This document shows, one piece after another, positions 9,161-26,607 of a stretch of DNA of 64,000 nucleotides (position 1 is its first letter; the number at the start of each line of letters is the position of its first letter). A program made the position numbers and the translations under genes. This DNA is from Streptomyces graminofaciens. GTDB taxonomy: Bacteria > Actinomycetota > Actinomycetes > Streptomycetales > Streptomycetaceae. The notes under the pieces were generated by a model. The model was not told where the DNA came from. It made no database searches and saw nothing but the letters and a program-made list of their open reading frames with translations. The stretch spans positions 2,294,001 through 2,358,000 of the forward strand of contig NZ_AP018448.1 of NCBI RefSeq assembly GCF_030294945.1, in the 5' to 3' direction.

Positions 9161-9189
9161 AACCCGGTTCCTGTATCAAGGAGTTGCCG

Positions 9190-9714: not shown

Positions 9715-9736
9715 TCCCCTCCCCCGGAGCACCATC

Positions 9737-10798
9737 ATTTCCCCGCACAACTCCGCCCGCCACGCTGCCCTCCTGCTCACCACGCTCGTGGCGGTCACGC
9801 TGACCGCGTCCGCCTGCACCACCTCCCACACCAGCAGTCCTGACGCCGCAGCCAAGGCCACCCGCGCCGCCTCCCCCACGCCGACCGCCGTCCCGGCGCT
9901 GACGAAGCAGGAGGCCCTCGCCCAGATCGCCCGCTACTCCAAGATCAACAACGCGGCCAACGACGACAACAACCGCATGCTCCTCGGCACCATCGAGGAC
10001 GGCCCGCTGTACGCGATGTCGGTCGCGGACTACAAGGAGAACGAGGGCCTGCCCCAGGCCGACCGCGAGAAGTACAAGCCGTGGTCGTACAACCTCGCCT
10101 CCACGAACCTCTACATCCCGCGCTTCACCGCCGGCCAGAAGAAGTGGTTCGCCGCCGTCACCTACAACGGCAAGAAAGACAAGTACGCCCGCGTCCTGAT
10201 CATGGCCGAGCAGACCAGGACGAAGCGGTGGGAGATGGTCGCGGCCGTCGACCTCGACGATAAGAAGCAGGCTCCGAAGATCGCTCTCGACGCCGACGGC
10301 TACGCCACCGCCCTCGACGCCACCTCAACGAGGAACGTCGCCGCCCCGCTCGACGTCCTGCGCGCGGCTGTCACGGACAACTTCACCACTGGCGGCGACA
10401 CCACCGGCAAGAAGGTGTTCACCTCCTCGAAGGCGTCCGCCCGGCAGATCAAGGCCCACGACTCAACCGTCCACAAGTTCGGCAGCCGCGGCACCACCGC
10501 GTTCTCCGCCGCCACCCCGGAGTTCACCGACAGCTACGCCCTCAAGACCGCCGACGGCCACGCCCTCGTCGTCTTCGCGCACACGCACACCCAGCGCGAC
10601 GCCGTCGCCTACTCCGGGCTCGAGATCGTGCCGGAGAAGAAGGACCGCGCATGGCTCGGCACGGCCAACAGCCCGTCCTTCACGTACACGTTCACCTGCT
10701 CCGATGTCGCCACCGTCCCCACCACGCCGGGCAAGTCGACGCTGATCGGCTACACCTGCCGCCGCACCGATGCCCACGGCATGACCACCTCCTCGTGA
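9737..10798 (+). CDS. Secreted lipoprotein, unknown function
   Basis: A 353-residue protein with a type II signal peptide: a short N-terminus with Arg and His, a hydrophobic stretch (ALLLTTLVAVTLTASAC) and the lipobox Cys near residue 26. A Thr/Ser/Pro linker follows, then a globular, Lys- and Tyr-rich extracellular domain. No ATG, GTG or TTG begins the frame before the signal peptide. ATT at 9737, seven bases after GGAG, is the best candidate start, with ATC at 9734 as an alternative. A surface lipoprotein beside a transfer channel could act in mating contact or surface exclusion; that is inference. Confidence 0.7.
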   Translation: MSPHNSARHAALLLTTLVAVTLTASACTTSHTSSPDAAAKATRAASPTPTAVPALTKQEALAQIARYSKINNAANDDNNRMLLGTIEDGPLYAMSVADYKENEGLPQADREKYKPWSYNLASTNLYIPRFTAGQKKWFAAVTYNGKKDKYARVLIMAEQTRTKRWEMVAAVDLDDKKQAPKIALDADGYATALDATSTRNVAAPLDVLRAAVTDNFTTGGDTTGKKVFTSSKASARQIKAHDSTVHKFGSRGTTAFSAATPEFTDSYALKTADGHALVVFAHTHTQRDAVAYSGLEIVPEKKDRAWLGTANSPSFTYTFTCSDVATVPTTPGKSTLIGYTCRRTDAHGMTTSS

Positions 10799-10836
10799 CC
10801 ACGGCCCTCGACACCCCACCGCACGAAGAACCGCCC

Positions 10837-11532
10837 TTGCACATAACCGAGTTCACCCACGCGCTCGCCGACCGTCTGCCCGGCTGGCAGCCCTCCCCCA
10901 CCGCGGTACCCATCGCCGACGACCCAGCCAGCAACCGGATCTGGGACAGCGGCCCCTTGCCCTACGCCGCGTTCCAAACAGACGACGTCCAGCGCAGCGT
11001 CCTGACGCACCACTGGGGCCTGCAGCTGTACGTCATGCCCCGCCCCCACCGGCCGGACCAGTACCTCGTCCTGCCGATGCTGCCCGCCAACACCAGCCAC
11101 CAGCACGTTCAGGGTCTCAAAGCTCCGCGCGGCATCGCCGTCCCCGCCGATCCCATGCGGGCCGCAGCCAGGATGCACCGCCGCCTGCTGGCCGACTACC
11201 GCTTCGCGTCCCCCACCCCGATCCGGCGCAGCAGCCCCGGCCACCTCCAGGTCCACGTCACCCTCGACGCCCAGCGGCGTCCACGGATCCGCACCGGCTA
11301 CATCACCGTCTTCATCGAACTGCTCGCGCACGGCGGCTTTCTGCTCGACCCCGCCACCGGCGAATGCCACCTGCCGGACACCCTCACCCCCGAGCAGACC
11401 CGGCGTCAGCTGATCAAGAGCCTCCAGCGCCTGCGGCACCGCGACTTCCACATCACCGTGCACTCCATCGAGGGCCCGCGCTCCCACCCGCCCCTTCCAC
11501 GGGGCAACCCGCTCAAGGGAAACCGCCGATGA
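10837..11532 (+). CDS. Paralogue family P hypothetical protein
   Basis: A 231-residue protein that starts at TTG 10837 (LHITEFTHALADRLPGWQP). It shares ADRLPGW, APRGIAVPADPMRAAARMHRRLL and the DYR segment with the proteins at 8387 and 38274. The C-terminal half differs from theirs and carries HLPDTLTPEQTRRQLIKSLQRLRH. The function is unknown. Its stop overlaps the ATG of the next gene (ATGA), which suggests coupling. Confidence 0.65.
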   Translation: MHITEFTHALADRLPGWQPSPTAVPIADDPASNRIWDSGPLPYAAFQTDDVQRSVLTHHWGLQLYVMPRPHRPDQYLVLPMLPANTSHQHVQGLKAPRGIAVPADPMRAAARMHRRLLADYRFASPTPIRRSSPGHLQVHVTLDAQRRPRIRTGYITVFIELLAHGGFLLDPATGECHLPDTLTPEQTRRQLIKSLQRLRHRDFHITVHSIEGPRSHPPLPRGNPLKGNRR

Positions 11533-12074
11533 GCCAGAGCCACGACGCCTTCGTCCACGCCCGCCTGACCACCTGGCAGCGCCGCATCAACGAGACCGCC
11601 GCCGGCCTGCTCCCGCCGCAGACCGGCAGCGCACAGGCTGCCCTCGTACCCGTGCTGGACCAGCTGGTCGCCGTGTACAACCTGTCCTCCGGCCTCGTCG
11701 CCGATCTGCGGCAGTCCACCGACAGCTCCCTCGCAGAGACCGACGCGGGACGTGAGTACCTGACCCAGCTGGCCACCGCCCTCGCGCACAGCAACCGCGC
11801 GGCCACCCACCTGAGCACAACGGTGATCGGTCTCGCCGACACCCACCGGCTCACTCCTCGCCCCGGCACCGCCACCCCGGTCGGGAGCCAGCTGAGCATC
11901 ACTCTCGGCCATGGCGCCGCGCTGCGCAGCCTCCAGCGTGCTCTCGAAGCCGTCACCAACGCGCTCGCTGAGGCTCAACCCGGTTCGGCGTCTTCCCTGA
12001 TGCCGACTGTCAGCGAGCAGCACCGCCGGGCAGCCGACGCCGGTGGCGCCCATCCCGCACGCCGCCGCCCCTGA
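11529..12074 (+). CDS. Helical-bundle paralogue H
   Basis: A 181-residue predicted all-helical protein (YLTQLATALAHSNRAATHLSTTV; LGHGAALRSLQRALEAVTNALAEA) of the same type as the one at 9190. Cys is absent and the tail is Ala/Arg-rich. The start codon overlaps the upstream stop. The function is unknown; a structural or accessory role in the element is possible. Confidence 0.65.
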   Translation: MSQSHDAFVHARLTTWQRRINETAAGLLPPQTGSAQAALVPVLDQLVAVYNLSSGLVADLRQSTDSSLAETDAGREYLTQLATALAHSNRAATHLSTTVIGLADTHRLTPRPGTATPVGSQLSITLGHGAALRSLQRALEAVTNALAEAQPGSASSLMPTVSEQHRRAADAGGAHPARRRP

Positions 12075-12079
12075 AGCGC

Positions 12080-12706
12080 ATGCGTCAACCACCCATCATC
12101 CGCACGTTCTTGGAGAACTCCCTGGCCACCCGTTCCTTCATCGCCCGCCCCACCGACACCGGATATGACGGCGTCTACGTCCACTGGGACGGCTACCCCA
12201 GCCACCACCTCCCGCTGCTGCTCGGCGCCCACCAGTACCGTTTCGACGGTGACCTCGACGCCCTGTGCCGGCACCTGATCGACGAGGCACCCGAGGGCTG
12301 GTCCCAGCTGGGCACCGACCTCCTCGACGGCGCCCCCGAACCCCTGCGCGCCGAACTCGTCGGCAGCGACGAACACCCCAGCAGGAAGCACGACAACGTC
12401 CATGTCATCACCGTCGGCGCAGCCGAGCCTGAGCCGTGGACCGTCACCGAGAAGTCCCACGGGGGCCTGGACTGGGGGTACGTCCTGCACCCGCATGGCA
12501 TCGAGGTCATCTCCCTCCACGCGGAAGACCGCGGCCCCGTCGTGGCCTGGGCCACCGACCCCCGAGCCCGGTTCAGCAACGGCACCTACCGCTGGCGCCC
12601 GGGCCACCCGATCCCGGCCACCCTGCCACCTCGGGCGACCGGCCCCAGCACACCAGCCGCAGCTCCGGCGCCGACCGCCGCACCTCGTACCGCGCCCCGC
12701 CGCTGA
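12080..12706 (+). CDS. Conserved hypothetical protein (YVHWDGYP family)
   Basis: A 208-residue protein with a compact N-terminal domain (about 18-180) containing the block GVYVHWDGYPSHHLPLLLG and later LDWGYVLHPHGIEVI. I have seen this type of protein in actinobacterial mobile DNA but know no function. The tail is Pro/Ala-rich. The start is ATG at 12080, five bases after the previous stop. Confidence 0.65.
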   Translation: MRQPPIIRTFLENSLATRSFIARPTDTGYDGVYVHWDGYPSHHLPLLLGAHQYRFDGDLDALCRHLIDEAPEGWSQLGTDLLDGAPEPLRAELVGSDEHPSRKHDNVHVITVGAAEPEPWTVTEKSHGGLDWGYVLHPHGIEVISLHAEDRGPVVAWATDPRARFSNGTYRWRPGHPIPATLPPRATGPSTPAAAPAPTAAPRTAPRR

Positions 12707-12739
12707 CCCCTTCTCGTCCTCTCTGCCGCGGAGAACCTC

Positions 12740-13159
12740 CTGTACTCCCCCACCGCCAAGATCACAGTCGTCATCGCCACCCAGCTACGCCCCGACCGGC
12801 TCGACCACCTGACGGCCATGTACGAGAGCCTTACCCGGCAGAGCGTGCCCTGGGAGGCTGTGATCGCGCTCGACGGCGCCGACCGCACACGCCTGCCGAC
12901 GCCCCTCGCCGGTGACTCGCGCGTGTGCATCCTCGCGCTGCCCCGGCAGGTCGGCGCGGCCTGCGCCCGTAACCTCGCCCTGGGCTGCGTGCGCACCGAG
13001 TTCGTCAACTGGGCGGACGACGATGACGAGTTCACCGACGATGCCATGACCGTACGGTTGCGCACCCTGGAGATGACCGGCTTGGGCTGGTGCGCGGGAT
13101 ACAGCGAGGACTTGCACCCGTCCGTTTTCCGGCCGACGGAGGCGCTCTGTGGCCGGTGA
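12740..13159 (+). pseudogene. Glycosyltransferase gene, 5' part, split by element A
   Basis: The N-terminal half of a GT2-like glycosyltransferase: a nucleotide-binding strand (KITVVIATQLRPDR), ALDGAD and the metal-binding acidic run NWADDDDEF. The native frame runs to CACCC at 13115-13119. Beyond that the frame enters mobile DNA (VFRPTEALCGR, stop). Joining 12740-13119 to 26205-26607 gives an uninterrupted 260-residue protein. It matches the intact element-borne copy (13293-14063) in length and colinearly in motifs. The start appears to be CTG 12740, six bases after GGAG. Confidence 0.85.
13118..13133 (+). repeat. 16-bp inverted repeat, left junction of element A
   Basis: CCGTCCGTTTTCCGGC here is the exact reverse complement of 26207-26222. 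The right copy lies in host glycosyltransferase coding sequence, while this left copy overlaps the junction and extends into the element. It may be a recombinase binding arm shared by target and element end. Confidence 0.6.
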
Positions 13160-13292
13160 CCTGGGATTGAACGTAGCGGACATGTACGCCACGGCGCTCG
13201 CGATCGAGGCCCGGTCCACTCAATCGGGTGCTGAGGAAGGCCAGTTGTATAACGCCGCGCGAATCGTCGCGGCGCCGAAAGGTAGATCCCCC

Positions 13293-14063
13293 GTGCATTC
13301 CGCACCTGATGCCGAAGTCGCCGTCGTCACGCCTACTCGGCTGCGCCCGGACCGAATCGCGTACCTGCTGGAGCTCTATGCGAGCCTGCGCGATCAGGAC
13401 GTGAGCTGGGAATGGGTTCTGGCCCTCGACGGCGTATCCGAGGACGGCGTGCCCGAAGTCCTGCGCACGGACGCCCGGGTGAAGGTCGTCGCGCTTCCGC
13501 GGCCGGTGGGAGCCGGCGCTGCGCGCAACTTCGCCGTAAACGAGGTGACCGCCGACTGGCTCACCACGTCGGACGATGACGACGTACTCCCCGCGCAGTC
13601 GTTGTCCGTGCGTCTCCGCCACGCGCAGAAGCACGATCTGGGCTGGTGTGCAGGCTGGTCTGCAGACCTTCATCCCAACCGCTCGATCACAACCTGGCGC
13701 TGCTCAACTCCGCCCGGTTTCCATGCGCCTGGTGATGTCTGGCGCCACTGGGCGACTCCTGACTCGACCATTCCCATCGGACCAACGACGCTCCTGGCGC
13801 GCACCGAGATCGTCCGCGCGAGCGGTGGCTATGCCGCCCTGCCCCAGGGGGAGGACTACGCCTATCTCGTCGGCGTCACCGGTGCTGCCCGCGGTGCTCT
13901 GCTGCCGACCGTGGTCTACCACTACCGCAAGCACGCGGAGCAGATGACGGCCCAGCCCGAGTATCCGGCCATGGAGCTGCAGGCCCGCCGGTTCGCCTGG
14001 AACCACGGCAAGCACCTGGAGTCGCTGCGCAAGGGGACGTGCACATGCGCGGCGGTCGCGTGA
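13293..14063 (+). CDS. Glycosyltransferase (GT2-like) carried by element A
   Basis: A 256-residue intact glycosyltransferase with VAVVTPTRLRPDR, LALDGVSEDG, the acidic TTSDDDDVLP metal site and the C-terminal blocks GWCAGWSADLHP, TIPIGPTTLLART and YHYRKHAEQMT. It is colinear with the host gene that the element interrupts and visibly similar along its whole length. GTG 13293, preceded by AAAGG, aligns with the host start; the frame is open further upstream, to 13149, but that extension has no counterpart. The substrate is unknown. It could replace the activity lost by insertion. Confidence 0.8.
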   Translation: MHSAPDAEVAVVTPTRLRPDRIAYLLELYASLRDQDVSWEWVLALDGVSEDGVPEVLRTDARVKVVALPRPVGAGAARNFAVNEVTADWLTTSDDDDVLPAQSLSVRLRHAQKHDLGWCAGWSADLHPNRSITTWRCSTPPGFHAPGDVWRHWATPDSTIPIGPTTLLARTEIVRASGGYAALPQGEDYAYLVGVTGAARGALLPTVVYHYRKHAEQMTAQPEYPAMELQARRFAWNHGKHLESLRKGTCTCAAVA

Positions 14064-14098
14064 CGGTGGCGGGCGCGGTCGTGCGGTCAGCCGCGGCG

Positions 14099-14914
14099 TC
14101 AGTCGTGACGGGCGAGCTTGATGGCGGAGATGAGCAGAATCACAGCCAGCGCGGGGATGAGCACCATGTCGGGGAACACGCCGAGCAGCAGCCCGCCCAG
14201 GACGGCTCCGGCGATCGAGCCCGCGACCATGACCAGGGCGAAGCGTCGGTTGGCGCCCAGCACTGCGAAGCTGCCGTCGCGGCTGTAGCGGGCGAAGGCG
14301 ACCAGCATGGTCGGCAGGGAGACCAGCAGGGAGAGGCTTCCGGCGGTCTTGATGTCCTGCCCGAACAGCAGCACGATCGTCGGGATCAGCAGCTCGCCGC
14401 CGGCCACGCCCATGATCGCGGCGACCACGCCGATGCCGAAGCCCGCCACCACTCCGAGCGGCACCTGCGCCCACAGGGACAGGTCGAGCGTTCCCAGGGT
14501 GGAGATGTGGGTGATCAGCAGGGCGGCGGCCATGAGCACCATCAGCGCGGCCAGCACCTTGTACAGGGTGGTGGAGCGCATGCGCACTGCCCAGGATGCC
14601 CCGGCCCAGGCACCGAGCAGGCTTCCGGCGAGCAGGTTGACCGCGACTGGCCAGTGCCCGGCCATTTCGGAGGCGGACACAGCGGTCAGGCGGGCGGGCA
14701 GCGCGGTCAGGACCACGACCAGGCTCATCGCCTTGTTCAGAATGACCGCGGAGAGCGCGGCGAAGCCGAAGAGGCTGATCAGCAGCGGCAGGCGGAACTC
14801 CGCGCCGCCCAATCCGATCATCCCACCCAGCACGCCGATGGCCGCCCCGGCGCCGAACACGACGGGCAGGGAGTGCGTCGAGCGCAGCGGTGCGAGGATC
14901 TGCTCGGTGGTCAT
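14099..14914 (-). CDS. TSUP/TauE-like membrane transporter
   Basis: A 271-residue polytopic membrane protein with about eight hydrophobic helices. It has the repeated Gly-rich signature of the TSUP family (GVLGGMIGLGGAEFRLPLL in the first half and IMGVAGGELLIPTIVLLFG in the second). Such proteins export sulfite, sulfonates or other small anions; the substrate cannot be read here. The start is the internal ATG at 14914 (MTTEQIL). A longer frame to 14965 would add only a basic leader. It is divergent from the glycosyltransferase and counts as cargo of element A. Confidence 0.8.
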   Translation of the reverse strand: MTTEQILAPLRSTHSLPVVFGAGAAIGVLGGMIGLGGAEFRLPLLISLFGFAALSAVILNKAMSLVVVLTALPARLTAVSASEMAGHWPVAVNLLAGSLLGAWAGASWAVRMRSTTLYKVLAALMVLMAAALLITHISTLGTLDLSLWAQVPLGVVAGFGIGVVAAIMGVAGGELLIPTIVLLFGQDIKTAGSLSLLVSLPTMLVAFARYSRDGSFAVLGANRRFALVMVAGSIAGAVLGGLLLGVFPDMVLIPALAVILLISAIKLARHD

Positions 14915-15040
14915 GCCGAGAATCCTCGCTGGTCGCCGCCCGTGCCCGCTACGGCGCAGGGCCACGTTCGGGGAAAGGTACCGGGTGGCCTGTGGGGATT
15001 CGTCCAGACCTCCCAGTCCGATCAGGTAGGCGGATCGTCG

Positions 15041-15625
15041 TCAGGGGGGTGGGGCGGTGAGCTGCTCGGTGATCTGGGCTTCGAGCGCGGCGATGCGCTT
15101 GTCGGCGAATCGCGCGTTGTCCCGGGCGGCGGCGAGGCGCTTGGTGAGGCGCTCCCGCTCGGCCGTCAGGGCCCTGACCTCGCGTTGCAGGGCGACGTTG
15201 GTGGTGGTGATGCGTACGACGTCGGCGTCGGTCCATTCGCCCTGCAGTGCGGTGATCTGGCCAAGGAGTTCGGCGATGCGTTCCCGCTGGTTGATGACCT
15301 CCGCGTTGGTGTTCTTGAGGGCCTCCTCGGTGTTGAGTGCGCGTTCTCGCCAGGACGCCTCGACCGCGTCGCGCTGGGCTTGATCGGTCTGCGCGCGCAG
15401 TCCGCGGGCCCGGAGGGTGGCCTCAGCGACAATCGTGCGGGCCTCGGTGTGTTCGTAGAGGAAGGTGCGCGAGACGTCCGCCTGCCGGGCGACCGCGGCC
15501 ACGGTGACCAGACTGCCGCTCTTGGCGAGCTGGTCGACGACGCTCTTGATGCGGACGAGGCTGGCTTCGGTCTTCTGGCTGCGCGCCTGCAGAGCCTGGG
15601 CGGTGCGGTGCGATGAGGCGGTCAT
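15041..15625 (-). CDS. DUF6262-like TnpC helper of element A
   Basis: A 194-residue protein with an N-terminal helix-turn-helix (VTVAAVARQADVSRTFLYEH) and a long C-terminal coiled coil rich in Glu, Arg and Ala. This is the layout of TnpC/DUF6262 proteins that accompany Tn554-type recombinases and affect the efficiency or orientation of transposition. The start ATG overlaps the stop of the large recombinase gene. The shorter paralogues at 17012 and 56249 serve the other two elements. Confidence 0.75.
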   Translation of the reverse strand: MTASSHRTAQALQARSQKTEASLVRIKSVVDQLAKSGSLVTVAAVARQADVSRTFLYEHTEARTIVAEATLRARGLRAQTDQAQRDAVEASWRERALNTEEALKNTNAEVINQRERIAELLGQITALQGEWTDADVVRITTTNVALQREVRALTAERERLTKRLAAARDNARFADKRIAALEAQITEQLTAPPP

Positions 15626-16269
15626 GCGGTTTCCTCGTACGAGTCGGTGCCGTCGGGGTCGATCGCGGCGAGGTCGCTGGCCTTGAAGGCGAGCGTCCAC
15701 ATGCGGTCGAAGTAGTCCTGGGGCCGGCGCAGGTCCAGGGCGAGCGCGTCGTCCAGCATGCCGAGGCCGGCCAGCGCCTTCTCCAGGCCGCCGATGGCGC
15801 GGGTGGTGGGCTCGAAGACGGTGTGGAGGTAGTCGGCGGTGCGGTCGTCCGGGGCGCGTTCGGCCAGCGAGGCCCACTGCTCGGCCTTGCGGCGCCAGTA
15901 CAGGAGGTCGGCGCCGGACATCACGAACTTGTCGCAGTTGTGGCAGTCCAGGTCCCACGGGCAGGCGTCCCCTCGCACCACGGGCTGGTAGGTGCAGAAT
16001 CCGCCCTCGGCCGGGGTGCTGCGGCGCGCGAGGTCGATCGCCATGGCCTGGGCCTCGGCCCGGGTCATGTGCTCGGACGGGGAGACGAGCAGCATGCCCG
16101 GCTCGGCGGAGCCGGGACCACTGACCCAGACCCGCTCGAGTGCGTCGTCGACCGCCGAGGAGGCGACCTTGGCGTAGTGCTCGGCCATCCGTACGGAGAT
16201 CTGGCCGAGGTACTGCTTGATGTGGTGGAGGCCAGCGCCGTTCTTCAGCAGGTTCGTGGCGAGCGCATG
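15622..16269 (-). pseudogene. Large tyrosine recombinase of element A, 3' part
   Basis: The C-terminal 215 residues of the TnpB-like recombinase whose first 651 codons lie at 22961-24913. The fragment begins at the HALATNLLKNG continuation of the catalytic HQARH box. It carries the LHHIKQYLGQIS segment and the catalytic Tyr in MAEHYAKVA. A Cys-rich zinc-like stretch (DLDCHNCDKF) follows. It has no start of its own. Together the halves encode 865 residues in one frame, so inner element A2 has inactivated this gene. Confidence 0.85.
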
Positions 16270-16455
16270 CCTTGTGTCCGCAGAGGCCGTGTGCGGATGA
16301 CCTTGTGTCGCGATTGAGCAGGCCAGGTGTCGAGGCCGCATTCGCGACGCAGATCGTCGGTCGTGTTGCTTTCCACGGGGTTTCCTGTGATGCGGATCAC
16401 TTGCGGCTGGTGCTCGTGGTGCCGTGTTGTCAGTGGGTGCTGAGATCGTGCCTCC

Positions 16456-16974
16456 GTGAGCGAACTGGTTGAGCATGTCGATGAGCATGACCGCGTGTTG
16501 GGGATAGTCGAGCGAGACGAAGCGGTGCGCGAGAACTGGCCGCATCGCATTGCAACAACGATCTGCCGTGACCGCGAGGGGCGGATCTTGGTGCTGCGAC
16601 GGGCCGAGACGATGTCCCGGTTCCCGGGCCACTACGACGTGATGGTCGGCGGCGCCGTGGACGTGGGCGAGTCGTATGAGGAGGCGGCGGTCCGCGAGCT
16701 GACTGAAGAGCTCGGCGTTCGCGTGCCGGTGCGCTTCCTGTTCAAGTTCCTCTGCAGGGAAGGGATTAGCCCCATATGGTTCGGGGTGCATGAGGCCCTC
16801 TTGTCGTCGGAGTCCCTGGTCCCAGACCCGGATGAGATCGGCTGGCTGGACTGGCTGACGTTGGACGAACTGCGCGACGTGATTGATCAATGGTGCTTCG
16901 TTCCGGGAGGGCGGGAAGCTCTGCGCCGATATCTGGAGTCCGGCAGCGGTGCGGGCGAAGTGGCAGCTGGGTGA
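16456..16974 (+). CDS. Nudix hydrolase, cargo of A2
   Basis: A 172-residue protein with a complete Nudix box near residues 66-88: G-x5-E-x7-REL-x-EE-x-GV, visible as VGESYEEAAVRELTEELGV. Together with the N-terminal EHVDEHDRVLGIVERDEA this resembles the YfcD/IPP-isomerase-like Nudix branch, which hydrolyses small nucleoside-diphosphate-linked compounds. The substrate is unknown. The start is GTG 16456. It is transcribed towards the helper gene and is the only non-mobility gene in A2. Confidence 0.85.
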   Translation: MSELVEHVDEHDRVLGIVERDEAVRENWPHRIATTICRDREGRILVLRRAETMSRFPGHYDVMVGGAVDVGESYEEAAVRELTEELGVRVPVRFLFKFLCREGISPIWFGVHEALLSSESLVPDPDEIGWLDWLTLDELRDVIDQWCFVPGGREALRRYLESGSGAGEVAAG

Positions 16975-17011
16975 TCGGCGATGCGGGTGGTCTCGGTCCA
17001 GGGCGGGCATT

Positions 17012-17473
17012 TCAGCTGCAGGACCCGATCACCGTGGTTCGTGGTGCTGGAAGCCGCCTGACTTGGGTGGTTCCGCCGGAGGCTTCGCGGAGCCGGACGA
17101 TCTCTTCGTGTTGCGCGGCGAGGCGAGCCAGGGACTGGGAGCGGAAGTCGGTGAGCTCGTCGATCGTCTCCTCAGACTGGGCAATCCGGGCTTTGAGCTT
17201 GGCGTTCTCTGCCTTGAGGCGGGCGATCTGGGCTTCGCGGGGGTCGGGGATTTCGCCGACATCTTGGAGGGCCTGCAGGCGCCGTTCGAACTCGACGCGG
17301 AGGTGAGAGTACGGGCGAGTGCCGTAGAACGCGGTGCGGTCGACGGCGGCCTCGTTGGCGAGGGTTTTGATGTCGCACTTTCCGCCGGGCGGGATCTCAC
17401 CTCGAAGGAGCCGGTCCATGGTGGCCCTGATGCGGTTCTCGTTCTCGGTTCGCTGAGCTGCAGAGATTCTCAT
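17012..17473 (-). CDS. DUF6262-like helper of A2
   Basis: A 153-residue protein beginning MRISAAQRTENENRIRA, with a helix-turn-helix-like region (CDIKTLANEAAVDRTAFY) and a C-terminal coiled coil (IARLKAENAKLKARIAQSEE). It is a clear paralogue of the element B helper at 56249, down to the terminal GSCS. The ATG at 17473 overlaps the stop of the third recombinase, giving a four-gene operon. Confidence 0.8.
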   Translation of the reverse strand: MRISAAQRTENENRIRATMDRLLRGEIPPGGKCDIKTLANEAAVDRTAFYGTRPYSHLRVEFERRLQALQDVGEIPDPREAQIARLKAENAKLKARIAQSEETIDELTDFRSQSLARLAAQHEEIVRLREASGGTTQVRRLPAPRTTVIGSCS

Positions 17474-19671
17474 GCGGAGTCCTCGTTCATGGTGGTGCGG
17501 GCGGCGTCGATCTCGGTGACGACGCGGAGAGCCCGGTCGTAGTCGGCCTGGAGTCGGGTGCGTTCGGTCTTGCGTGTGGTGCCGAGCTGGCCGATGAACG
17601 TCTCGGTGCGGTCGGCGTGTTCGGCCCAGACGGGACGGTGGCAGGGGTGGTGTGTGGCCTGCGGGCAGCGGGCGGAGTCGCACATTCCGACCAGCGGTCG
17701 GTCGGCGGTGGGGGTGCCGGCGAGCTTCAGGCAGAGCGCCCGGGACGGGTCGGTGAACCAGCAGTAGTTCGCGGGTCCGAGGTGGAGGACCTTGGCTCGT
17801 TTGGTCAGCAGGTTGAGCACGTCGCGGTCACTGCGCTGCGTCTTCGGCGCCAACGCTGCTGCCGGGTCGAGCTTCTCGTCGATGCTGGCGAAGAACTCGG
17901 TGAGGCTCCGAGCTCCCGGGCCAGCTGGCAGAATTCCTTGCTGGTAGTTGCGGAACTCGGCCAGAACCAGATTCAGGTTGCGGTCGCTCTCGTGCTTGTT
18001 CACCTCGGCCAGCAGCTCGGCCTGTGCTCCGCCGGGGCGCGAGGCATACCCTTCCGTCGTGGCGACAACGACATGCTTTAGGTGGATCTTGGAGGCGAGC
18101 ACGCCGCCGGGACGGTAGGCCAATTCCAGGGCCAAGGTCCTCCTCAGCATCCGGAGGTTGACCGGTCCGTTGGGGATCGGGGCAAGCCCAAGTCGTTGTC
18201 CGGCTTCGGAGTTGACCCAGTTCTTGAACCACTTGTAGCGGACGCCGAAGGCGAAGCGGCCGAAGAGCAAGGACCCGTCGTGCGGGTCGTCGTGCAGTTG
18301 CTCGGCGAATGAGATCGCGTGATAGACCGGTTCGATGACGACCCACTCATCGTCGGTGCCGCCCAGCGGTTGGCCTTTGACGACCTTGCTGGCGACGCGG
18401 TAGCGGGTCAGACCAGGGACGGACTCCTCGGGCGGGCGGCGGCAGCCGACCCGCAGTTCCATCAGCTCACTCGCTCTCATCCCGGAGACCGCGGCCAGAA
18501 CGATGATCACGGCCGTGCGGACGATCCCGACCAGCGCGACGGCCTGGAACCGGTGCAGCGGCAGGGTCCAGGACAACGAGGACGCGCCGTCCGCCGTGGT
18601 GACCTCGGAAGCCTGACGGGCGAACATCTTCTCCACTCCCACCGAGGCGACCGCGGATTCCAACGGCCCGCGCAGAGCCGGGAACCATCTCGACCAGAAC
18701 TGGCTGAACCCGGCCTGCCGGGCCAGGACTCCGGTGGCCACCGGCAACAGGGGATCGTCCGCGGACCAGCCATCGGCCCGTCGGTCATCGGCATAGTTCT
18801 CGGCCAGCATCGGCAGGGGTGTGCACGTTCGCGTGTACTCGGCCAGCAGCTTCACGATCTCATCAGCGAAGTCCGGACCGCCGTGTCGCAACCCGGCTGT
18901 CTTGCAGGAAATGCTGCTGTCGTTCTCCCGTACTTCCCGGTCCAATTTGACGGCGTGCGGGCCGAGCGCGGACACGACGTAGAGCGCGGCCGCGAGCAGG
19001 GGCTGCAGCACGCTGTCCTCGACCGGCGGGGTCTTGTTCTCGGTGCGGCCGCTGGGCATCTCGGCGACAGCTGAGGCTGTGGCCCCGCCCCAGGGCCGCA
19101 GGGCCCCAGGGACACGGTCAGCTGTGAACAAGTCGCCGTAGTTGACCAGGTCGACGACGACCTGTGCGGCGGCGCGTCGCGTTGCGGGGCTCTGTTCGCC
19201 GACAACCGTGCCGTTCTCGTCGAGCACGTAGCGGCGATGGGCCATGTATGCCTCGCAGATCTGCGTACTGATCTGCTGCAGACTCCCGATGGCCTGCTTG
19301 TCCAGCCAGGCAAAGAGCCTGGTGAGCTCGTCCAGCCGGCCCGCGCAGCTGCGCAGGTGCAGGGCCGTGCGATGAGCCCTGGGCAGTGGGGCGACGGCTG
19401 GATGACGCGGAGCGAACAGAGCCAGCACCAGTTCCTTGGCAACCAGGCGCCACCGAGTGTCGGTGATCGCGGTGAAGTTGAAACGGCGGGTGCAGAGGGC
19501 GAGTTGGACGGGCAGCCCGACGACGTCGGTGAAGTCCCAGGTGTCGTCCTCGAACAGCGGTCGCTGTGTGCCCTCGGGAAGAAGGAATCCGGCCTCGCGG
19601 CAGACATCAGCGCCGGCGAAGATCGCGGACCGGCCGTCGAAGGCGGCAGCAGTGGCAAGGGCAGTGGTCAA
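17470..19671 (-). CDS. Tyrosine recombinase 3 of A2
   Basis: A 733-residue recombinase. The catalytic region has Arg in AVSGMRASELMELRVGC, a second box around RMLRRTLALELAY, LKHVV and the nucleophile Tyr in ATTEGYASRPGG. The C-terminus has a conserved Cys/His segment (CDSARCPQATHHPCHRP) that may bind zinc. It is the paralogue of 54091-56232. The start is TTG, overlapping the upstream stop (TTGA). Confidence 0.85.
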   Translation of the reverse strand: MTTALATAAAFDGRSAIFAGADVCREAGFLLPEGTQRPLFEDDTWDFTDVVGLPVQLALCTRRFNFTAITDTRWRLVAKELVLALFAPRHPAVAPLPRAHRTALHLRSCAGRLDELTRLFAWLDKQAIGSLQQISTQICEAYMAHRRYVLDENGTVVGEQSPATRRAAAQVVVDLVNYGDLFTADRVPGALRPWGGATASAVAEMPSGRTENKTPPVEDSVLQPLLAAALYVVSALGPHAVKLDREVRENDSSISCKTAGLRHGGPDFADEIVKLLAEYTRTCTPLPMLAENYADDRRADGWSADDPLLPVATGVLARQAGFSQFWSRWFPALRGPLESAVASVGVEKMFARQASEVTTADGASSLSWTLPLHRFQAVALVGIVRTAVIIVLAAVSGMRASELMELRVGCRRPPEESVPGLTRYRVASKVVKGQPLGGTDDEWVVIEPVYHAISFAEQLHDDPHDGSLLFGRFAFGVRYKWFKNWVNSEAGQRLGLAPIPNGPVNLRMLRRTLALELAYRPGGVLASKIHLKHVVVATTEGYASRPGGAQAELLAEVNKHESDRNLNLVLAEFRNYQQGILPAGPGARSLTEFFASIDEKLDPAAALAPKTQRSDRDVLNLLTKRAKVLHLGPANYCWFTDPSRALCLKLAGTPTADRPLVGMCDSARCPQATHHPCHRPVWAEHADRTETFIGQLGTTRKTERTRLQADYDRALRVVTEIDAARTTMNEDSA

Positions 19672-21383
19672 GCGGTCATCTCCTCGGGCCGCAGGGGCAG
19701 TTCATCGTCCTGGTCGGCGATATGGGCGGCGCCCGCGGCCAGGACGGTGGGGTCGAAGCGGTCCAGGACCTGCTGGATGCGTGCGGCGTAAGGGCCGAAG
19801 ACGGCCATGAACTGGGCGGCGGGCATCTGCTGCCACTGTCGGGAGAAGAACGCCTTCAGCCGCAGCAGGTTGACCGCATGCCGAGGGGCGAACACCGCCA
19901 GCGGGCAGAGCAGACAGACCCAGGGCCGGGCCGGACAGGGCTTTCCCTTGGGACCGTGCAGCCCGGACAGCTGGTCACCGCAGGCAGCCGTGAACACGTC
20001 TCGCTGGCCGCCGACCAGCTCGGCGATCGCCACATCGTCCAGGTCCATGGCCGCCACCAGCTGCGGATAGCCCCCGGCCAACGCGGCCGCGTCCTCCTCG
20101 GTAATCACCGTCGGCGGGTGGGCCCGCCGGAGCATGTCGTGCTGGGCGTCCTCGACGACCGTCTCGATGGCCTGCTGCTGGGCCGGTGTCGCGGCCGTCA
20201 GGTAGTGATCACCTTCGACGGCCGGTGTGTGGTTCGGGTCGATGGTCGCCCGCGAGCTGCCTGTCCAGGTGCTCTTGTCCCGCATTGCTTCGTGGGTGGT
20301 GCGGATCCGCGACCGGTGGATCTTGAGGGGCTGGCCGTCGTTCCCGACGACTCCATGGCGAAGGGCCCATCGCTGAACTGCGACCCGGTCGATCCTGCGG
20401 ACGCGGCGTGAACCGCCGGCCCGGCTCACTCCCACCCACAGTTTGCGGCGTTCTTCCGGCGGCAGGAAGGTCCGCAGCAGTGCCGACTGCGCGAGCCACT
20501 GTTCCAGCACGCGAACCGCCCGGCGGGGCAGGTTCAGGCTCTCCGCCGTGGTGCGGCGCTTGATGTAGGAGAGCAGGACCGTCGAGTCACCGGCCCAGTC
20601 GATGTCCTCGGTGACCAGGTCGTCGATGCCGTCGGGGACGATGCCGGAGTAGATGCCGAACAGCAGCCGGTAGGCGATCAGCGCGTCCAGGTGCGGGAAG
20701 ACGGCCCGGGTCGCGTCGTGGAAGCCGCCGCGGTTGTGGACCACTGCCGCCGAGACGTCCAGGTGCTGGCCGAAATCGCTGATGCTGACGGGCCCGACCC
20801 GGGTCAGCAGCCAGCGCAGATTGCCCGGCTTCCAGCCACCTTCGAGGGGGTGCTGTCCGTCGGCGGCATCGGCGAGGGCTCGTCGGTGGGCGGCGTACGA
20901 ATCGTCGACCAGGGTGCGGCAGACCTCGGTCAGCCGCTGCCATTCCTCCTCTGCGTAGGGCGGCAGCGCCTGGCGGTTGGGCTGGATGTTGAAGTGACGC
21001 CCGGAGGCGAGTTCCAGTACTCCCTCTCCGAGGGTGCCGCCGCTTTGGGTAAAGCCCTCCACCAGGCTGCGGGTCAGGGCCTCCAGCCTGGTCGGACTGG
21101 CCATCCAGAACTCGGCCAGCTGGCCCCGCCGTAGCTGAGCGGCTCCACCAGCGAAGCCCTGCGCGGCCAGAGTGCGGACCATGTTCCGCAGAGCCTGGAT
21201 ATAGAAGTTGACCGTGCCGTCCGAGTCCGCGGTGCCGTGCGGATGGATCAGGTCCACGAGGCCGGTGGCCAGGTCCCGGGCCAAGACCGGGTTCGGCAGC
21301 CCGTCCAGGCTGTAATCGGCCCGGCGGCCGTCACTGAACACGCAGGTGAGGCCGAGGGGTTCGTCGACGAGCATGGTCGGCAT
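19668..21383 (-). CDS. Tyrosine recombinase 2 of A2, catalytically atypical
   Basis: A 571-residue protein, paralogue of 52337-54094. The C-terminal region keeps a recombinase-like layout: HRSRIRTTHEAM resembles the H-x-x-R box and NHTPAVEGDHYL the H...Y region. The position where the first catalytic Arg is expected reads YSGIVPDGIDDL and lacks it. It may therefore be a structural or accessory member of the trio. It has a conserved Cys-rich C-terminal segment (CPARPWVCLLCPL). The start overlaps the stop of recombinase 1. Confidence 0.75.
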   Translation of the reverse strand: MPTMLVDEPLGLTCVFSDGRRADYSLDGLPNPVLARDLATGLVDLIHPHGTADSDGTVNFYIQALRNMVRTLAAQGFAGGAAQLRRGQLAEFWMASPTRLEALTRSLVEGFTQSGGTLGEGVLELASGRHFNIQPNRQALPPYAEEEWQRLTEVCRTLVDDSYAAHRRALADAADGQHPLEGGWKPGNLRWLLTRVGPVSISDFGQHLDVSAAVVHNRGGFHDATRAVFPHLDALIAYRLLFGIYSGIVPDGIDDLVTEDIDWAGDSTVLLSYIKRRTTAESLNLPRRAVRVLEQWLAQSALLRTFLPPEERRKLWVGVSRAGGSRRVRRIDRVAVQRWALRHGVVGNDGQPLKIHRSRIRTTHEAMRDKSTWTGSSRATIDPNHTPAVEGDHYLTAATPAQQQAIETVVEDAQHDMLRRAHPPTVITEEDAAALAGGYPQLVAAMDLDDVAIAELVGGQRDVFTAACGDQLSGLHGPKGKPCPARPWVCLLCPLAVFAPRHAVNLLRLKAFFSRQWQQMPAAQFMAVFGPYAARIQQVLDRFDPTVLAAGAAHIADQDDELPLRPEEMTA

Positions 21384-22855
21384 CAGAGGTCACCGTCCTC
21401 GATCTCGTCGGCGAACTCGGCCACAGCTTCCCGCTCGGCCGCCGCATCCTCGGTCAGCCCGGCAGCGGCTCCGGCCCCCTCGTATGCCTCGCGGTAGATG
21501 CGCGTCGTATCCAGGCGGCGAAGGTACTTTTCCGTGGTTAGGACGGTGGTATGTCCAAGAAGATCACGAAGCACCAGCAGCGGGTCCGCCTTGCTCAAGT
21601 AGAAGACCAGAGCGGCGTCGGCGTCGGTGTCCCGGACGAGTTTCGCGGCCTGCCGGTAGTGCCCGGTGACCAGGTATTCCAAGGTCCTCATCGAGAAGGT
21701 GTGGCGACATCGGTGGGGCCAGACGTGCGGGAAACGGGGCTCGAAGCGGGCCCGGATCCGGTCGGATGTGCGCTCGAAGACGGTGGACCAGGCGGTGAAC
21801 GGGCCGCCGCCGTTCTTCACCGCCAGCAGGCACGAACCGCCCTCCGGGGCGACCAGGCGCCGTCGCTCGGACGGAGTCAGCGAATCCCACGGGCGCCGGA
21901 TCCCGTTGATCAGCCCTCCCCGGGCGTCGGGCTGGGTGACCATCAGCGGATCGCCCCATCGCCGTGGCGGCTGCCAGCGTGAGCCGTCCGTCGTGGCGGC
22001 GCGGTCCAGGTCGAGATAGTCGTGCAGTCCGGCCAGGGCCTCGTAAGAGGTCCACGTGGTGCGGAACTTCTTGCCCTTGGTGATTCCGGCCGGCACCGGA
22101 AACGGGATGGGGACCGCGGTCGGCTCCGGCGGCAGAGCGGGGATCTCCCAGGGCAGCAGGTAGGTGAACTCCTGCAGCCGCATCCCGGTGGCTAGCGCGT
22201 GATCCCCGACCGCTGCGTTGCGGGTCAGTTCCCGTCCGTGGAATCCGGTGTCCTGCGAACCGTCCGGGGCCAGCCCCCGCAGCCCCTTGCGGAACAGCTC
22301 GGTGAAGTCCGGCTCCAGGTACTTGATCGTCACGTGTGGCTTCGGGGTGCGGCGGACCGCCAGATTCACCTTCACCTCCCGTCCGGTCCCGGCGAACAGA
22401 GCCCGCGCGGCGCGGTAGGTAAACGGCTCGTCTGGCGCGTACTCCTCATGTATCGCCCACCGGTAGAACAGCGCCAGGATGCTCATGTGCTGGCCCCACG
22501 TCGTCGCCACGAACCGGGCCTTCAACGGACCGGCGGCGCGGTGTTCGGCGTACCGGCTCAACGCGGCCTTCAGCCGTACTCGCGAGTCGAACAGCTCCAC
22601 CCCGTGCTCGGCCAGAAACTCCATCCATTCCTTGACCACGCGTGCGTAGTTCTCCCACGAGCTCGGCGCGGGCGCCCCGCTGGTCGGGAGCTCACGCAGC
22701 CACCGGTTCACCACCACTGTCGGACGCGGCGCAGCCGGGCCGTCCTCGAAGCACAGATCGTCGTCGACGAGCACGGGCATCCCCTCGGAGATCAACGGCC
22801 GATGCTCGACATCCCAGGACTGCCAGCCCCGGGACGAAAAGAAGTTCAGGATCAT
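21383..22855 (-). CDS. Tyrosine recombinase 1 of A2
   Basis: A 490-residue tyrosine recombinase with all core boxes: Arg in ATGMRLQEFTYL, H-x-x-R in WPHRCRHTFSMRTLEYL and LRDLLGHTTVLTTEKYLRR with the nucleophile Tyr. The start ATG at 22855 (MILNFFSSRGWQSWD) aligns with the paralogue at 50877 (MLMTFFSSATWESWG). The frame is open 15 codons further upstream without similarity. It is the first gene of the A2 operon, about 100 bases from the right end of A2. Confidence 0.85.
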   Translation of the reverse strand: MILNFFSSRGWQSWDVEHRPLISEGMPVLVDDDLCFEDGPAAPRPTVVVNRWLRELPTSGAPAPSSWENYARVVKEWMEFLAEHGVELFDSRVRLKAALSRYAEHRAAGPLKARFVATTWGQHMSILALFYRWAIHEEYAPDEPFTYRAARALFAGTGREVKVNLAVRRTPKPHVTIKYLEPDFTELFRKGLRGLAPDGSQDTGFHGRELTRNAAVGDHALATGMRLQEFTYLLPWEIPALPPEPTAVPIPFPVPAGITKGKKFRTTWTSYEALAGLHDYLDLDRAATTDGSRWQPPRRWGDPLMVTQPDARGGLINGIRRPWDSLTPSERRRLVAPEGGSCLLAVKNGGGPFTAWSTVFERTSDRIRARFEPRFPHVWPHRCRHTFSMRTLEYLVTGHYRQAAKLVRDTDADAALVFYLSKADPLLVLRDLLGHTTVLTTEKYLRRLDTTRIYREAYEGAGAAAGLTEDAAAEREAVAEFADEIEDGDL

Positions 22856-22945
22856 GAGAGCCGACAGTAGAAACACCACACGGCTCAGTGCAAAGCCCAA
22901 ACCCCCAGGCCATCACCCCAGTTGGAGCCAATCGCCACACGGAAA

Positions 22946-24913
22946 CTAAGCAGAGACAATGTGGCGGGCCTGGTGCGGTACCCAGGCGCCGATATCCAGC
23001 GCCTCCAGCCAGTCGCGGAAGGCGTCACCGAAGATGCTGTAGGTGATCGCGACCGTGCCGTCCGGGTTCTTCTGGGGCGACGGGAAGAGAGCCAGTCCCG
23101 TTCGCTCTCTCGGCCCGGGACTGCGGCCGTAGAGGTCCTCGAAGCGTTCGATGGTGATCTGTTTGCGCTGCTCCAGTCGTTCGTAGAGGCGTTGTGGGAT
23201 GCGGATGGCCTCGTCGAGGTTGCCCACCTTCGTCTGGTCGTGCCAGAGGAAGGGGACCCTGCGGTGGATCGAGGTGCACTCCAGCCGCAGCTCGGTGACC
23301 TCCGAGGCCCGGCGGCCGGTGAACACCAGCGTCTCCCAGATATCGCGGTAGCCCATGTCGTTCGGGTCGAAGCGGTCGGACAGCAGCTGCAGGTTCGTCT
23401 CGTCGGCCAGCGCCCGGGCCACCGGGTCGGGGAAGGGACTGCGGGTGCGCTCGGAACGACGAGCGGTCGGCAGGGCGATGATGAACTCACGGGACAGACC
23501 GATGCGTTCAGCCTCTCCGGTCTCCAGCGCGTCGCGCAGAATCGAGCGGGCCTGGTTGAAGACCTGGCGGTGGGTGTAGCCGGTGACCTTCATCGGCCGT
23601 CCGTCACGTCTGATCGCCAACGACGGCAGGCCCTCACGCGCCCGCTTGTTGTGATCGGCGACGAAGCGCCGCATGTGATCCGCGGTGAGCACCGTCGGAT
23701 CGTGGCCGCCTCCGGGCGCGACAGCGGTCAAGAACACACCGAGCTCGACGCACGCCTTGCGCCCGCACTCGATGTGCTGCGGGCTTCGCGGTGCCTGCGG
23801 AGAGCGCAGGCGGCGAGCCACACGGTCCCAGAGCAGATCACGCAGCCACCGCTGCGGCACGTCGGTGAAGTCGAAGTGGCTGGAGCGGCGCTTGTAGCGG
23901 ATGCCGTAGTGCTCGGTCTCCAGGAAGCCGGCCTCCTTGGCCTCCTGCTCAGTGACGTAGACGATCCGCAACTCGTCCGCGGTCTCCCTGAGGATCCTGC
24001 GTTCGCGCTCGGCGAGCGCCGCCGGATCGGACAGCAAGTCGAGCACGGAGTTCACGCCGCGCAGGCGGGCCAGGTTCGCCACCGCCTGGATGTGCCACAG
24101 CGGCCAGGCCGAGCGCTGAGCCTTCTGGGCATGGGCCAGCAGCCCGAAGCGGATCTCGGCCTGGACCAGCGGCGCAAGGCCCAGAAGATTGACGGTGCCG
24201 GCGCGCGAGGCGGGGCGGGCGGTGCGGCACCAGTGCCGGAAGGCATCAGGGGCGGTGCAGGTGATCTCGACGGGCTCGCGCCCAACGACCCGGTCACCGC
24301 CCCACCCCGCTGGCCGCTGGGCTCCACCGGGCCGCCCGTCATTGCGATAGCGCTCATCATGGACGTAGCACAGCCGCAGGGGACTGTCCGCCCGGCCGAC
24401 GCAGCCCGCCACCAGGCAGTCGCCGTAACCGGGCAGGGCCTCGGTCTGCAGCGCGACGAACTCGTCGTAGGTGAGATCCCGCTTCCTGAACAGGACCTTG
24501 TTCCACCGGCTGAAGTGGGTCAGGCACAGCCGCAGCCCGAGATGGCGGGACGGGCGCTCAGGGCAGAACCGGCAGTCCGGCGGCTCCATGAGCCGAAGGT
24601 CGAGGACCTTGGGCTGGGCCGTGCGCAGGAACTCCCGCCGCGTGGCGCCGGGTTGTTGCTTCGCGGTGCGCCAATCCGCCCGGTGCAGATGGCACAGGTC
24701 GACGGTGTTGGTGCGGGCGGCCCGGCAGCCGTTGACCCGGCAGAACCAGCCGTAGACCGGGTGATCGCCGGGCCAGTGCAACACGGACTCGCGATAGACC
24801 GGCTCGACGCCCGGCGCCGCCAGAAGGGCCGTCAGGATCTCCAGCCGATCACGTCGCTCACGAGCCGACGCGTTGACCAGCAGCTGAATAGGGGCGCGTG
24901 TCGCTTCGCTCAC
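22946..24913 (-). pseudogene. Large tyrosine recombinase of element A, 5' part
   Basis: The first 651 codons (down to 22961) of the TnpB-like recombinase of element A. The frame then runs five residues into A2 and stops. Several Cys/His clusters in the N-terminal half (WFCRVNGCRAARTNTVDLCHLH; CRFCPERPSRHLGLRLCLTH; CLVAGC) look like zinc-binding modules. The catalytic Arg is in TGRRASEVTEL. The break falls right after HQARH. The missing 215 residues, with the nucleophile Tyr, are at 15622-16266. Confidence 0.85.
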
Positions 24914-26088
24914 CGCAGCTCACCCCACGTCGCAAGGAGGGCGTCATGGAACACCGGGTCGTTCACATCGACGTGCGCGTAGATCTCATCGACGACCTCG
25001 GTCGAGGCCCACCCGCCGGCATCGCGGACGATGGCCAAGTTCCCGTCGGCGGCCTCCAGGACCGCGCTGGCCCAGGTGTGCCGGAACATGTGCGGCTTGA
25101 TCAGTCCCAGTCCCGCCCGGCGGCCGGCCCGCCTGAGCATCTTGCGGGCCCCCTCCGGGGCCCACGGCAGACCACGCCCGGGACCGTGCTGCTGAACGAG
25201 CAGCATGCCGTGCGAGGCGCCGCGCGGGTACTCCAGAGTCAGGTAGTCGAAGTACGCGTGGACCATGGCCGGGCTGACCCTCTTGATCAGCCCGCCGTGG
25301 ATCACTCCGTCACGAAGTTCCCACTCCCACTTCGTCTTGGCCCGGGCCCCATTGACCAGCCCGTCCCGATGGCAGACGTGGGCGTGCGGACCACGGCACT
25401 CCCCGCACGCGGCCTCCTCCCGAAGGTGCAGGTCGCACAAGTGAAGGCCGCACATCTCACCCGCACGGAACCCGCCGTCGCTCAGCCACTCCACCACCAG
25501 CCGATCCCGCAAGGAGTTGACCTCATCCAGCAACACCGCCCGAGCGCCGTCCGGCAGCATCTTCTTGTGCCGACGCCGCACCGACTTCGGCGCCAGCGGA
25601 TTCGCCTGCATGCTCCGCTGCAGATGACCGAGCAGCGACCGGTCCCGATCCCGTTGGGTCGGCATCCGGTGCAGCTTCAACGACGCCACCAGCTCGGTGT
25701 TGACGCCCAACTCGGCCTGCTTCAGATAGAAGCCCTTCAGGCACGCCGCGGCACCGCGCAGAGCGTCGTTGCCGTACGGCCGCTTCCCCACCCGCCACGG
25801 CCGGCCGTACGGCCCGGCGACCTTCGCTCCGATCGCGCCCATGTACCGCTCAAGGTCACCGAACCCGACGTCCTCCGGCGTCAGCCCCTCGTGCTCCAGC
25901 CACCGAAGGTGATCGACGAGCAGATAGGCGTACGTCCGATCCGACCCCGAACAAGCATATCCACCCAAGTACCGCTCCGCCCCGCCATGCACTCCTCGCA
26001 CCGAGTCGAAGATCGTGTACGCCACACGACCATCGCCGTACCGCACCGACTGCACCCTGAGCTGCCCAACCGACAGCGTCCGCACCAC
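24910..26088 (-). CDS. Tyrosine recombinase TnpA-like of element A
   Basis: A 392-residue phage-integrase-family recombinase: Arg in DGGFRAGEMCGLHL, the H-x-x-R box in HMFRHTWASAVLEA and the nucleophile Tyr in STEVVDEIYAHVD. A Cys/His knuckle (CGECRGPHAHVCH) is inserted in the catalytic domain. The start is GTG at 26088 after a strong GGAGG. It overlaps the next gene and is the first gene of the element A mobility operon. Confidence 0.85.
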   Translation of the reverse strand: MVRTLSVGQLRVQSVRYGDGRVAYTIFDSVRGVHGGAERYLGGYACSGSDRTYAYLLVDHLRWLEHEGLTPEDVGFGDLERYMGAIGAKVAGPYGRPWRVGKRPYGNDALRGAAACLKGFYLKQAELGVNTELVASLKLHRMPTQRDRDRSLLGHLQRSMQANPLAPKSVRRRHKKMLPDGARAVLLDEVNSLRDRLVVEWLSDGGFRAGEMCGLHLCDLHLREEAACGECRGPHAHVCHRDGLVNGARAKTKWEWELRDGVIHGGLIKRVSPAMVHAYFDYLTLEYPRGASHGMLLVQQHGPGRGLPWAPEGARKMLRRAGRRAGLGLIKPHMFRHTWASAVLEAADGNLAIVRDAGGWASTEVVDEIYAHVDVNDPVFHDALLATWGELR

Positions 26089-26199
26089 AGTTCCTCCGAG
26101 CCGACCCGTCCACCGACATGGCGAACATCACGGCAGCGGTCGGCAAACGAGCACGTGACGTACGCGGTCACTGGCTCGACGAACATCCCGAACAGCCCT

Positions 26200-26607
26200 C
26201 ACCCCAGCCGGAAAACGGACGGCACGACCTCGCTGTGGCGGTGCCCGACACCGCCCGGCCGGCACGCGGCCGGAGACGTGTGGACCTACTGGACGAGGCC
26301 CGAGGACACCATCCCGATCGGGCCGACCACGATCCTGGCGCGTACCGATCTCGTACGCGCAGCCCCGATGGGCGGGCTCGTCCAGGGCGAGGACTACATG
26401 GCGGCGATCGGCGTCACCTGCCTCGCGCCGGGCATCCTGCTGCCCGTCCCGGTCTACCGCTACCGCAAACACCCAGGTCAGATGACCCGCCAGGACGGCT
26501 ATGACGTCCTGGAGCCGGGGGCTCGGCGGCATGCGTGGAACTACGGACGCAGCCTGCGAGCCACCCTCTCTGGCCGGGAAACGAGCGATGCAGCCGGGGT
26601 GGTCTGA
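26200..26607 (+). pseudogene. Glycosyltransferase gene, 3' part, split by element A
   Basis: The C-terminal half of the host glycosyltransferase interrupted at 13119: HPSRKTDGTTSLWRC, TIPIGPTTILARTDLV, QGEDYMAAIGV and YRYRKHPGQMT, all with counterparts in the element copy. It has no start of its own, since upstream frame sequence belongs to element A. Its stop overlaps the ATG of the next gene, the coupling usual for the backbone. Confidence 0.85.
26207..26222 (+). repeat. 16-bp inverted repeat, right junction of element A
   Basis: GCCGGAAAACGGACGG, reverse complement of 13118-13133. It is part of the host glycosyltransferase reading frame just outside the element and may mark the recognised target half-site. 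Confidence 0.6.

Follow-up and report, generated by a model that had tools for sequence, protein, structure and literature searches.

The 64,000-nucleotide stretch of the Streptomyces graminofaciens genome analysed here (positions 2294001-2358000 of a single contig of 11.6 Mb; hereafter the window) contains a 6,688 bp element, A2, that splits the large recombinase gene (tnpB) of a Tn554-like element, A, which itself lies inside a glycosyltransferase gene. A2 very probably belongs to an actinobacterial lineage of elements resembling GInt and the strand-biased circularizing integrative elements (SE), and the attachment site of this lineage is the DNA encoding box II (H-x-x-R-H) of tyrosine recombinases. 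A2 was likened to GInt and SE, and A to Tn554, by build and published descriptions, and the names tnpA, tnpB and tnpC were assigned from position and size, after Tn554. A first-pass annotation of the window had proposed both nested insertions, and these are real, with both inserts present and both joins in frame. It had treated the inner insertion as a single event, but A2 turns out to be one case of a box II rule rather than an isolated one.

A2 and its insertion site

16272..22959, reverse strand: A2, four-gene GInt/SE-like element cutting tnpB of A
22966..24913, reverse strand: N-part of tnpB of A; its last codons are box II, HQARH
22960..22965, reverse strand: attL, 6-bp core at the left end of A2, GCCACA on this strand
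21383..22900, reverse strand: A2 gene 1, 505 aa tyrosine recombinase
19668..21383, reverse strand: A2 gene 2, 571 aa, with GIVPDG at the expected place of box I
17470..19671, reverse strand: A2 gene 3, 733 aa, large recombinase-type protein (RMLRR box II and H..Y, motifs by eye)
17012..17473, reverse strand: A2 gene 4, 153 aa, small coiled protein at the GinD/Srap/TnpC place
16456..16974, forward strand: Nudix gene, cargo of A2
16266..16271, reverse strand: attR, 6-bp core at the right end of A2, GGCATG on this strand
15622..16265, reverse strand: C-part of tnpB of A, carrying the catalytic Tyr

The termini of A2, TTGTCTCTGC and GCGGACACAA, are inverted at 8 of 10 bp. Its attL core consists of the final two bases of the Arg codon, the complete His codon and one base of the codon that follows, while the attR core is probably the footprint of the previous site. 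The four genes overlap or abut in the window and in most of the full-length A2 copies compared, and relatives of the Nudix gene lie inside the copies in loci L039 and L041. Among the four genes of A2, only gene 1 has Pfam or NCBIfam support. At the box I place of gene 2, Arg was found in none of the 21 rows (read by eye). The predicted structure of gene 2 was weak (mean predicted local distance difference test score 65.7) and, used as a query, this weak prediction gave no match in the PDB at E≤0.001; the gene 3 sequence likewise had no PDB match. Profile comparison linked gene 4 to TnpC of A (probability 58) and gene 3 to TnpB (66), both links being only moderate.

Junctions of related elements

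A starting search with gene 2 yielded 38 loci: 22 clade members with a left flank, 12 unusable loci (four contigs that start at the terminus and eight loci without a left end) and four members of other clades. In several of them, fragments of other recombinases sit directly upstream of gene 1. In L036, L038, L043 and L051, contig position 1 is the left terminus of the element, as expected of an assembly break at a repeated element. The junction census comprised copies with gene 1 at least 71% identical and a left flank present, 30 in all, at 24 distinct sites once six Mycobacterium loci had been merged into one site and L039 and L113 into one locus. The hosts include Streptomyces, other Streptomycetaceae, Nonomuraea, Actinocrinis, Kribbella, Nocardia, Mycobacterium, Mycolicibacter, a Micromonosporaceae metagenome-assembled genome and further genomes. 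One copy is located on a Streptomyces chartreusis plasmid, and the fragment just upstream of it is annotated as a site-specific integrase.

At 23 of the 24 distinct sites, the left flank ends in [HRY]xxR[HRK], in register with the 6-bp core on the Arg-His codons; examples are HQARH, HDLRH, HMLRH, HDFRR, HSFRR, RQFRR, RELRH and YAYRH. His occupies the first place of the motif at 20 of these 23 sites, which are not all independent, against 0.15% of open-frame codon positions for the strict motif. A right end could be located at 19 of the 24 sites, each time followed by an in-frame recombinase-like C-part with the consensus RHxxA...LGH...T..Y. PF00589 was detected at E≤0.01 in 13 of 23 N-parts and 10 of 19 C-parts, the remainder resting on alignments.

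Several points weigh against a general box II rule. The 71% identity limit was chosen after the data had been seen, and about half of the N- and C-fragments fall below Pfam significance. At L039/L113, HTVRH is one base out of register (by eye) and the left open frame is only 34 codons long; this locus has been rearranged, since L039 holds an older gene-1 fragment 3 kb upstream of the copy (5297-5539, 61 residues, with HRLRH in front). At L073, the N-part contains a LacI domain and the right end was not found, so that the last codons alone support a recombinase there. The N-part of L111 aligns poorly, that of L116 has just 82 codons, and L064 is a composite of two fused partial copies (8425-18597). 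Some sites, such as L067 and L131, may go back to one insertion, a history that is excluded for most sites because their target genes differ.

Sister clades and the DNA address

As controls, we used 22 copies from sister clades (gene 1 identity up to 66%), including a second element of the window; 10 of their junctions were placed by pattern and 12 are approximate. HxxR was found at none of the 22 sister-clade junctions, the 12 approximate ones included. The targets named among them are an MFS transporter gene (L133 and L041), a ParA-like gene (L126, weak) and LDLFA(G) codons (the window and L068, with L121 read by eye). Among the 44 proteins of a gene-1 tree, all 22 box II rows fell into one clade (support 97/94), and the target label changes once on this tree, against a mean of 15 when labels were shuffled.

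The second element of the window, at about 50775-56746 on the forward strand, has the same general build, and its gene 1 is 60% identical to that of A2. It begins directly after VILDLFAG codons, and L068 and L121 have their elements at the same place. This motif resembles the S-adenosylmethionine-binding motif of C5 DNA methyltransferases. In L041 (8425-19821), an A2-clade copy is followed, at most 2 kb on, by a sister-clade element in the MFS transporter gene.

A DNA matrix was built from 22 left and 17 right flanks (18.0 and 11.2 bits). In a leave-one-out test, the true site was outscored by a median of 91 positions in 3.1 million, other sites and recombinase genes included; the worst case was the Mycobacterium site, with 708 better positions. 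Of 61 hits above 15 bits in the control loci, where recombinase genes are frequent, 55 are compatible with a loosely defined box II in the right register; at least two of these 55 (in L001 and L117) are not clearly in recombinases. Across the 26 Phage_integrase loci of the S. graminofaciens genome, 14 of the 15 positions above 15 bits are box II, and 12 loci have no such position; no gene of this genome exceeded the XerD family cut-off. The matrix thus finds box II elsewhere, so the DNA itself carries the address, and this coincides with catalytic codons. Box II of tnpA of A (window position 38899 on the reverse complement) scores 32.1 bits, against 25.8 for the tnpB site that A2 entered, and A therefore offers two predicted targets.

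A natural empty site

Locus L165 (genome G267) holds a relative of A that lacks A2, with tnpA 95%, the N-part of tnpB 89%, its C-part 87% and tnpC 89% identical. Its TnpB is uninterrupted and reads GTWVPHQARHTLATNLLKNGAG; at 865 aa, it has exactly the length that the first-pass annotation had predicted for the rejoined protein. The two window alignments on L165 share exactly 6 bp at the A2 site (6640-6645), and L165 reads ACG where attL of A2 implies A. Both tnpB halves in the window are still open and in frame. The order of insertion proposed at first, and the loss by A of its full-length large recombinase, are supported by these data. A search of the S. graminofaciens genome for a second TnpB N-part found this copy alone at E≤1e-5, hence no copy was seen that could help A in trans, and for this reason A has probably lost movement of its own. 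Its 'trapping' by A2, also suggested in the first-pass annotation, is plausible. Alternatively, A might be released by excision of A2, or by TnpB of an incoming relative acting on its ends, still in place as a 9-bp inverted repeat.

Evidence of movement

A later search of 345 genomes of the same family (E≤1e-215) matched six: the window's own, G832 with two copies, and four whose contigs were left uncounted, three taken as already used and one starting at the element. The two G832 copies are 7,360 bp long, 100% identical and 5.7 Mb apart, and they split two different recombinase genes at HILRH and HVLRH, with a C-part after each. One copy has GTCACA as its attL core and GGCACA as its attR core, and GGCACA is also the attL core of the second copy. 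In SE, attR holds 6 bp from the left side of the donor (PMC10214605); under that rule, the donor's attL core becomes the new attR core, which gives the direction of the move in G832. The window, too, agrees with this rule. Among the 20 elements with both cores, every attR core encodes His or Arg when read in the register of box II, and in 15 of them the two cores differ, so the previous sites were probably recombinase genes as well.

Searches with gene 1 gave 20 matches to plasmid records at E≤1e-80, including one with 88% identity, and none to phage records. At the level of the class, 8 of 394 genomes matched at E≤1e-150, and at the level of the phylum only the window's own genome did so (1 of 356, E≤1e-215).

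Element A and its glycosyltransferase target

12707..13118, forward strand: N-part of the interrupted glycosyltransferase gene, an open frame with an unclear start codon (Pfam Glycos_transf_2, E 5.6e-9)
13119..13124, forward strand: 6-bp core CGTCCG at the left end of A (empty sites in L172-L174)
13125..26215, strand not assigned: outer element A, Tn554-like, 13,091 bp, inside the glycosyltransferase gene
13293..14063, forward strand: intact family 2 glycosyltransferase within A, a paralogue of the target gene
14099..14965, reverse strand: TauE/SafE exporter, cargo of A
15041..15625, reverse strand: tnpC-like gene of A, DUF6262 (E 3.5e-8)
24910..26088, reverse strand: tnpA of A, 392 aa tyrosine recombinase (PF00589, E 3.8e-17)
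26216..26221, forward strand: 6-bp core CGGACG at the right end of A
26222..26607, forward strand: C-part of the interrupted glycosyltransferase gene

The termini of A, TTTTCCGGC and GCCGGAAAA, form a 9-bp inverted repeat, and their positions correct the borders first given for A (13115-26204), which were about 10 bp off at each end. Joining the two outer parts restores 267 codons from stop to stop, whichever 6-bp core is kept. The expected in-frame join was thus recovered, but the 260 residues first predicted for the protein would imply an unusual start codon: no in-frame ATG, GTG or TTG occurs between the upstream stop and codon 12818. The joined protein (264 aa) was used to query 199 genomes of the same genus at E≤1e-30. 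It matched 24, one of which was the window's own genome, with the two pieces and the paralogue. In the remaining 23 the match crosses the join (best, 82% identity), and both genes that the first-pass annotation had proposed to look for in related genomes were recovered uninterrupted, the glycosyltransferase here and TnpB in L165. L172, L173 and L174, which were fetched with their surroundings, have the uninterrupted gene and share neighbours with the window.

The relative of A in L165 occupies the same place in a glycosyltransferase gene as A does in the window. It carries a partial glycosyltransferase paralogue (85%) at its left end (11626-12068), and TauE of A has no counterpart there. These two cases suggest that a glycosyltransferase paralogue is a regular part of A; the intact copy in the window had gone unmentioned in the first-pass annotation. 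Traits that A has in common with Tn554-related elements are a TnpA of 392 aa, a long TnpB (865 aa in L165), a DUF6262 protein and a single gene direction, together with a fixed target and a 6-bp core without target duplication (window and L165, two cases only). In L138-L155, several relatives of A (TnpA about 63%) have their start behind codons for short motifs, for example LVLID or FLDVD (by eye), and they look as if the family of A, too, had a short protein-motif address.

Comparison with known systems

As described in PMC5385486, GInt elements (ginABCD) share with A2 an operon in which three recombinase-type genes precede a small fourth one, followed by cargo, as well as site-specific insertion with a 6-nt staggered exchange. 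They are reported from an ABC transporter gene, ssb and nrd, whereas the target of A2 is a recombinase box II. The SE described in PMC10214605 have the same gene order as A2 (a recombinase, a recombinase-like protein without the full catalytic motif, a large recombinase and a small protein) and also take a 6-bp footprint from the donor to the new site; they are reported from Gammaproteobacteria, with targets unlike those of A2. The recombinase without the first catalytic Arg is encoded by the second gene in A2 and SE, but by the third in GInt.

RIT elements resemble A2 in having three recombinase genes, and single RIT insertions into a transposase gene or into radC of an integrative and conjugative element (ICE) are mentioned (PMC3414803), as are single insertions of RIT or SE in transposase genes (PMC3414803; PMC10214605). 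They differ in their smaller recombinases and 34-bp terminal repeats, and the passages of PMC3414803 covered give no motif-level target rule. RIT recombinases measure 315-410 aa, each with a catalytic Tyr, and the terminal repeats are again given as 34 bp (PMC10214605). With recombinases of 505, 571 and 733 aa and a terminal repeat of 8 of 10 bp, A2 was rejected as a RIT. Integrative and mobilizable elements integrated in oriT of ICEs likewise use a hallmark sequence of other mobile elements as their site, though that target is a transfer origin (PMC7563843) and that of A2 is a set of catalytic codons.

Actinobacterial Tn554-related transposons, as presented in PMC3414803, combine a normal-sized and an abnormally long recombinase with a TnpC-like protein, as A does; unlike them, A carries a paralogue of its own target gene and is cut by A2. 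Tn552-II (PMC12486829) is also a tnpABC-type transposon carrying a relative of the gene it disrupts, but it is staphylococcal, with another target and cargo and a 7-bp site. The parts of A and A2 thus are of known kinds, and the target rule seems new: full-text searches of an open-access library brought up no paper recognised as describing an element directed at the catalytic codons of recombinases.

Proposed mechanism and alternative explanations

Most likely, the four A2 products would form a circle that recombines with box II DNA. The crossover covers 6 bp, from the second base of the Arg codon through the His codon to the first base of the codon after it. Very different recombinase genes can serve as targets because the function of the protein keeps the box II stretch constant. 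Each insertion separates the catalytic Tyr from the rest of the recombinase, so the target element should lose that recombinase. In the window, the victim is tnpB of the Tn554-like A, already inside the glycosyltransferase gene; its N-part ends four codons into A2, leaving the Tyr half stranded.

That A2 is an ordinary insertion that merely happened to land on tnpB is hardly credible: nothing beyond the single locus speaks for it, and chance nesting is ruled out by the junction census, in which 24 distinct sites, and the two found later, agree to the base or within one base against a strict-motif background of 0.15%. The question of what the targeting achieves is more evenly balanced. It may be that A2 targets box II as described and that the disabling of the other element is a by-product, box II being a conserved sequence that the host can do without and that occurs frequently on mobile DNA, where the element gains a site to land on and is carried along; we give this account about an even chance. 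It fits with the other addresses used by the sister clades (MFS transporter, ParA-like and LDLFAG codons) and with the published GInt elements in ssb, nrd and transporter genes (PMC5385486), which point to a conserved address as a general habit, and 14 of the 26 Phage_integrase loci of this genome hold a site above 15 bits. Nothing decisive speaks against it; the target's loss of function is identical if the lineage is instead a hyperparasite, moving between tyrosine recombinase genes and disarming its victims at the catalytic motif, with its own first recombinase drifted from the target motif as self-protection. This latter possibility is tentative. Box II of gene 1 itself has a median score of 12.2 bits in the A2 lineage (n=26), against 20.2 in the sister clades (n=22; Mann-Whitney p = 0.0012, uncorrected for kinship), and this low score hints at self-avoidance. 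As to whether the disarming is selected or incidental, both views carry similar weight.

Two further roles would concern the split gene itself. The leftover N-part could be expressed and, lacking the catalytic Tyr, take up the DNA sites of the target element and so block it. The N-part in the window continues as I-V-S-A before a stop inside A2, and the corresponding TTAG of the left end shows 95-100% conservation across the 24 sites, but this conservation may serve recombinase binding, and we consider such interference unlikely. Precise excision of A2 could also act as a switch, silencing the recombinase of the host element and restoring it in the way that some prophages control host genes. 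The two open, in-frame halves of tnpB would allow such a switch. Against it stands that, in related elements, an empty site often escapes detection after excision (PMC5385486 and a table in PMC10214605); we regard the switch as improbable, somewhat more so than interference.

If the targeting of box II by the A2 lineage is as we propose, a natural integrating element addresses the catalytic codons of an enzyme superfamily and thereby disables rival mobile elements. This would provide a tractable case of mobile-element conflict and a recombination system of several proteins whose choice of targets is broad but defined, and it would explain split integrase genes in actinobacterial genomes.

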